DNA from: Cytophagales bacterium
GTDB lineage: Bacteria > Bacteroidota > Bacteroidia > Cytophagales > Cyclobacteriaceae
NCBI GenBank assembly: GCA_022360015.1
Contig: JAKSDQ010000158.1
Span: 1-64,000 of the forward strand
Length of the DNA stretch: 64,000 nucleotides
Direction of reading: 5' to 3'
Position 1 is the first letter of the stretch. Each line of letters opens with the position of its first letter. The translations under genes were made by a program, and so were the position numbers. The notes beneath the pieces were generated by a model. That model ran no database searches, had not been told where the DNA came from, and was given only the letters and a program-made list of their open reading frames with translations. Shown piece by piece: positions 46,021-46,353 of the stretch.

Positions 46021-46045
46021 AAAAAAAGGAGAGCGTTTGCTCTCC
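46021..46045 (-). terminator. Intrinsic terminator of the candidate RNA
   Basis: On the minus strand GGAGAGC pairs with GCTCTCC (46028-46034 with 46039-46045) around AAAC, followed by T7 (46021-46027). The T-run and the adjoining bases are part of a 22-bp palindrome TTTTTTTGTTTAAAC plus A-run at 46006-46027. Confidence 0.75.
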
Positions 46046-46262
46046 GGGCCGGATACCTTTCGCTCTTTTTTAGTTTTATCCAAACCGCCAAAGTAGCTTT
46101 TGGTAAATCTATGATTTATCCGGAAGTTTTATTCCGAGACGCTTTACAACCTCGGACTTCCTTCTTTAGTTTTAATCTATCCCGGGAGCTCTTTACAATT
46201 ACTACAATCACCTTTTCACTCTCCCTACCTGTCTGGCATTCCCGGTGTTTTAGTTTCTGCAA
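46021..46262 (-). ncRNA. Candidate structured small RNA
   Basis: No protein fits this stretch (the 69-codon minus frame at 46116-46325 begins upstream of the putative promoter and has no coding character). The minus strand could be transcribed from a sigma-54-like promoter at 46272-46288 and ends in a clear terminator: GGAGAGC-loop-GCTCTCC (46028-46045) then seven T. Inside are further perfect pairings: 46049-46055 with 46117-46123 (CCGGATA/TATCCGG), and a nested pair 46122-46126/46157-46161 with 46133-46138/46151-46156. Length would be about 240 nt. I recognise no known RNA family. Confidence 0.4.
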
Positions 46263-46271
46263 ATTAAGATG

Positions 46272-46288
46272 ACAATATGCGTGCCAAC
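46272..46288 (-). promoter_or_regulatory. Sigma-54-like -24/-12 promoter
   Basis: The minus strand reads TTGGCACGCATATTGTC. The -24 half TTGGCACG is exact for the sigma-54 consensus and the spacing to the -12 TTG is right; the -12 dinucleotide is GT instead of GC. The expected start is near 46262. An imperfect dyad at 46314-46353 lies upstream and could be an activator site. Confidence 0.4.
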
Positions 46289-46313
46289 TTTTCATAAAAG
46301 CTTGGTCAATCCG

Positions 46314-46353
46314 TTTTCGGCTCAATAGGAATCATTTTAGCGAGTCGAAAACA
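46314..46353. promoter_or_regulatory. Dyad upstream of the sigma-54-like promoter
   Basis: GTTTTCGGCTC (46314-46324) and GAGTCGAAAAC (46343-46353) are reverse complements with one mismatch, spaced by 18 bases. The centre lies about 48 bases upstream of the -24 element, in the place where an enhancer-binding activator of sigma-54 could bind. That role is inferred. Confidence 0.35.

Follow-up and report, generated by a model that had tools for sequence, protein, structure and literature searches.

A predicted small RNA gene with a sigma-54-like promoter, shared by two species of a Cytophagales genus

Results

Genomic context and comparison with a sister species

The window analysed here, a 64,000-nt stretch of a 7.3-Mb Cytophagales genome (the host genome, G000), carries a folded RNA element on the minus strand between the gene for a ZIP-family metal transporter and a 51-aa ORF. 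The ZIP gene lies on the same strand and its stop codon is ~200 bases upstream of the element, while a PA0069-family radical SAM gene is encoded on the opposite strand beyond the ORF. An earlier note on this sequence had described an unannotated folded RNA with a sigma-54-like promoter, an upstream dyad and a hairpin-T7 terminator, and had read the combination as an activator-controlled small RNA gene. The features are as follows.

47228-46488, minus: ZIP-family metal transporter gene
46352-46342/46323-46313, no strand: 11-bp dyad GTTTTCGACTC/GAGCCGAAAAC, one mismatch
46272-46290, minus: sigma-54-like promoter block AAGTTGGCACGCATATTGT (-24 box TTGGCACG, -12 box TTGT), 19/19 identical in the sister species
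46021-46260, minus: putative noncoding RNA, ~240 nt, start placed by promoter geometry and end by the terminator
46182-46245, minus: P1 helix, CCGGGA (46245-46240) with UCCCGG (46187-46182), long-range, closing a 52-nt loop
46231-46222, minus: CAGGUAGGGA block in the P1 loop, all 10 bases shared by the two species, with no consensus pairing
46122-46161, minus: P2 hairpin, GGAAG/CUUCC and UCCGAGGU/GUCUCGGA with an asymmetric loop, all pairs kept in both species
46050-46122, minus: P3 long arm, CGGA/UCCG, UACC/GGUA, GCU/AGC and CUUU/AAAG, with two compensatory double changes
46045-46021, minus: intrinsic terminator GGAGAGC-AAAC-GCTCTCC-T7 (U7 in the RNA), 25/25 identical in the sister species
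45844-45689, minus: 51-aa ORF, 83% DNA identity to the sister-species copy

A DNA search of 59 relatives recovered one real homolog, on contig JAUJEB010000008.1 of Agaribacillus aureus BMA12 (locus L002, 1539-1783), one other species of the genus, and the comparison reported here is one of two sequences. The order of the ZIP gene, the RNA, the 51-aa ORF and the radical SAM gene is the same in both species. Identity is 70% across the ZIP coding sequence, 49% from the ZIP stop to the promoter, 100% in the promoter block, 40% from -11 to -1, 68% in the RNA body and 100% in the terminator, and the promoter block and terminator stand out against a decayed intergenic background. This comparison shows that the RNA element, with its promoter block, fold and terminator, has persisted in the genus, whereas the intergenic DNA around it has decayed. 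It is the comparison with the sister species, and not the single sequence, that places the promoter block, terminator and helices above chance.

No reading frame across the RNA is shared: a 69-aa frame and shorter ones are not common to both species, and the region differs by indels of 1 and 4 bases. The 51-aa ORF has no Pfam or NCBIfam match, begins ~180 nt past the terminator, and is preceded in both species by a conserved, near-identical promoter-like TATTTTTGCGTGATT ~16-30 bases before its ATG. Hfq was not found in either genome, an absence that has also been reported for Bacteroides (PMC7366714).

A conserved sigma-54-like promoter block

The string TTGGCACG-CATA-TTG at 46287-46273 is the sole exact match to TGGCACGN4TTGY in the host genome. 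Its -24 box is near-consensus and its -12 box reads TTGT, not TTGC. The sister species keeps both boxes, in contrast to the -7 stretch, which is TTAATTTG in the window and TATAAGTG in the sister. The gene rpoN, whose absence would have undermined the earlier reading, was found in both genomes, and PF00158 (Sigma54_activat) has 14 matches in the host genome, eight of them above 200 bits; eight or nine rank as strong Sigma54_activat proteins. The presence of rpoN, the near-consensus -24 box and the conservation of both boxes against a non-conserved -7 box make the sigma-54 assignment plausible, and likely but unproven. The motif itself is hardly enriched across the genome: TGGCACGN4TTGC with at most one mismatch occurs 57 times against 42 for the reversed control, and an approximate sigma-54 consensus matrix or spacing profile run on 1.25 Mb gave weak enrichment. 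A matrix built from the genus's own two conserved sigma-54-like sites was overfitted and uninformative, and was set aside.

Two other sigma-54-like sites, conserved in both species, were seen near enhancer-binding-protein genes (TTGGCAYA-N4-TTGG and TTGGCACA-N4-TTC; TTGGCAYANCTTTTGG and TTGGCACAGTTTTTC), with the same box spacing and variable -12 letters. They are found, as TTGGCAYANCTTTTGGAT and TTTTGGCACAGTTTTTCNATAT, at L082 2532 (+) with L083 and at L089 with L096. Together these suggest that the sigma-54 consensus of the genus departs from TTGC at -12; given the variable -12 letters, TTGT is not out of place.

The upstream dyad, proposed earlier as an activator site, is present with its one mismatch. 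Its score is reached by 34/200 dinucleotide shuffles, it is absent from Agaribacillus aureus and it has no second copy in the host genome; it was rejected as an activator site on these grounds. No other dyad common to both species was seen, and any conserved activator site may be non-palindromic or distant. Control by an activator is suggested here by the sigma-54-like promoter itself.

A consensus fold shared by two species

Folded as a single sequence, the RNA is ordinary (minimum free energy z -1.07; 27/200 shuffles equally good), and the folding potential described in the earlier note is not above chance at that level. Comparison with the sister species gives a different result. RNAalifold, run on a hand-corrected two-species alignment with the terminator left out, returned a consensus of -29.9 kcal/mol against a column-shuffle mean of -13.1 (sd 3.4), a z of -4.9 that was reached by 1/1000 shuffles; the earlier uncorrected alignment gave z -4.1. 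The antisense strand has a consensus fold nearly as good (-24.1).

All 33 consensus pairs form in both species. Six of them vary, four by changes on one side only and two by compensatory double changes (46121-46051, G-C to U-A; 46097-46062, G-C to A-U). Two such changes are frequent in shuffled alignments (685/1000, and 132/500 in a second test), and with two sequences the compensatory changes are not significant by themselves. Changed columns are rarer among paired positions (7/66) than among unpaired ones (56/147; p = 4e-5), in a structure derived from the same alignment.

The consensus has three domains. P1 is identical in both species, with alifold pair probabilities of 0.84-0.93; P2 contains four pairs with one-sided changes in which pairing is retained; and the base of P3 is the CCGGATA/TATCCGG helix picked out in the earlier note, which carries one of the two double changes. 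The TCCGAG/CTCGGA and GGAAG/CTTCC helices named with it are likewise present, and all three rise above chance once compared with the sister. The CAGGUAGGGA block, although unpaired in the consensus, is partly paired in single-sequence ensembles, and is the best candidate for a contact site of the RNA. In both species AGGUAG in the P1 loop (46230-46225) can pair with CUACUU in P3 (46096-46091) on the minus strand, an invariant complementarity that may represent a pseudoknot or an alternative state.

The hairpin and T7 run are present as previously described and exceed chance by the sister comparison. The same hairpin recurs exactly or nearly at unrelated Cytophagales loci (L003, L005, L008 and L009), so its letters represent a shared terminator type rather than a mark of this RNA.

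Distribution and family searches

None of the 4227 families of Rfam 15 matched at gathering score in the window, and matches at a permissive threshold (DM_SisR1, L20_leader and others) fell far below their gathering scores, none being credible, in agreement with the earlier statement that the element resembles no known RNA family. A DNA search of 397 genomes of the family returned terminator look-alikes and chance pieces alone. A match at locus L010 (genome G010) lies inside coding sequence and was discarded as a relative. Covariance models run on 391 genomes of the order (R1) and 395 of the class (R2) gave chance-level matches alone, the four class-level ones (E ~0.004-0.007) being the count expected by chance. 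A pattern scan of GTDB contigs recovered Agaribacillus aureus and three records in Streptococcus and Pantoea, which the covariance model does not match and which were rejected as relatives. Plasmids and phages yielded no relative, and in the other genera searched neither the element's promoter nor its motifs occur downstream of the ZIP homologs. The large searches used strict filters, by which diverged relatives could be missed; as far as these data go, the element appears restricted to the genus within the genomes searched.

Discussion

The syntenic homolog, the fully conserved promoter block and the consensus fold lend good support to a separate noncoding RNA gene whose product is structured and terminated. 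An apparent promoter and a terminator of its own, situated between genes and both conserved, are what is expected of an intergenic small RNA gene, and that this is a new, lineage-specific and otherwise ordinary one is believable. Our preferred reading, to which we assign a probability of about 0.55, is a stand-alone, sigma-54-dependent small RNA gene whose product would act in trans without Hfq, with CAGGUAGGGA as its likeliest contact site. The earlier proposal of an activator-controlled small RNA gene holds to the extent that an RNA gene is supported and sigma-54 is plausible; the dyad is not supported as its activator site.

An unlikely alternative keeps the same trans-acting RNA gene and gives it to the housekeeping Bacteroidota sigma factor, with the TTG at 46287-46285 as -33 element and TTAATTTG at ~46267-46260 as -7 element. 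In the window the spacing is workable and TTAATTTG is off in one of the six fixed positions of the published -7 consensus TAnnTTTG (PMC7366714). However, the -7 stretch lies in the poorly conserved -11 to -1 segment and reads TATAAGTG in the sister, whereas every base of the sigma-54-shaped block, with its GGCAC and TTGT, is unchanged. Quite improbable is a cis-acting leader or attenuator in which the fold and terminator would set read-through into the 51-aa ORF: strand and order are the same in both species and the intervening stretch is also conserved (70%), yet the ORF has its own promoter-like TATTTTTGCGTGATT, it lies ~180 nt past the terminator, and the alternative GGGAGAG/CUCUCC pairing with the terminator, which the window sequence would allow, is lost in the sister, where GGGACAG stands instead.

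We give very little weight to a 3' untranslated region of the ZIP transporter mRNA that uses the same terminator and is possibly processed to a small RNA. Such a transcript would fit the shared strand, the short distance from the ZIP stop and the lack of a terminator-like site between that stop and the element in the window. Against it, the intervening 200 bases are unconserved apart from the promoter block, a weak terminator-like site is found at the stop of the sister's ZIP gene, and the element's promoter and motifs do not follow ZIP genes in the other genera searched. It is most improbable that no functional RNA exists and that two close species are alike here simply through inherited intergenic DNA; the ordinary single-sequence fold and the occurrence in two species only would agree with this, but neighbouring intergenic DNA fell to 49% while promoter, terminator and helices stayed, and the consensus fold lies well outside its shuffles. 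A free small RNA is most likely, since conservation covers promoter, body and terminator together and the ORF downstream is preceded by its own conserved promoter-like site.

In the stand-alone sigma-54-dependent gene that we infer, transcription by sigma-54 RNA polymerase, switched on by an enhancer-binding protein, would start near 46260 on the minus strand and stop near 46021, at the terminator formed by the hairpin and T7 run. The product would be a three-domain RNA consisting of the P1 loop, the P2 hairpin and the P3 long arm. It would most likely act in trans, base-pairing with mRNAs or binding a protein, with CAGGUAGGGA as the likeliest point of contact. As no Hfq was found in either genome, the RNA would work unaided or through a different chaperone.

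Small RNAs under sigma-54 control are known chiefly from Gammaproteobacteria, where they are Hfq-assisted. The Qrr RNAs use Hfq, and the predicted element is about twice their length. GlmY/GlmZ of Enterobacteria stands alone and can be transcribed from a sigma-54 promoter; the element would resemble it in both respects, its own promoter being sigma-54-like, and differs in phylum and in having no Rfam match. The sigma-54-dependent Qrr of Vibrio, for example the quorum regulatory RNA of a bacterial symbiont (PMC10162802), is comparable to the element as a small noncoding RNA gene with an intrinsic terminator and a -24/-12 promoter, putative in the element, and both sit in genomes that encode rpoN together with enhancer-binding proteins. 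Unlike Qrr, the element has no adjacent activator gene and a host without Hfq, and the two show no sequence or Rfam match.

The phylum commonly lacks Hfq, and its GibS of Bacteroides thetaiotaomicron (PMC7366714) and Rfp18 of Flavobacterium psychrophilum (PMC9723704) are likewise intergenic small RNAs; Rfp18 is also structured and conserved at the genus level. The element differs in its sigma-54-like promoter, and no relative emerged from Rfam or from the covariance model in class-wide sampling. Tentatively, and with rather doubtful odds, the element would be a Cytophagales regulatory RNA that is enhancer-activated, sigma-54-dependent and Hfq-independent. Its three-domain fold would match no family described so far, and it would connect a signal under activator control with post-transcriptional regulation in Bacteroidota. 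If confirmed, such a case in an Hfq-less genus of the Bacteroidota would offer a testable entry to the roles of sigma-54 and enhancer-binding proteins in the phylum; taken from sequence alone, the element is one more lineage-specific small RNA.

The interval from the terminator to the 51-aa ORF (46020-45885, minus strand) forms a second conserved noncoding stretch with 70% identity to the sister species, and within it GAAACCTTTT, AGGGTCTTTA and TGAGAGATTTTTA are identical in both.
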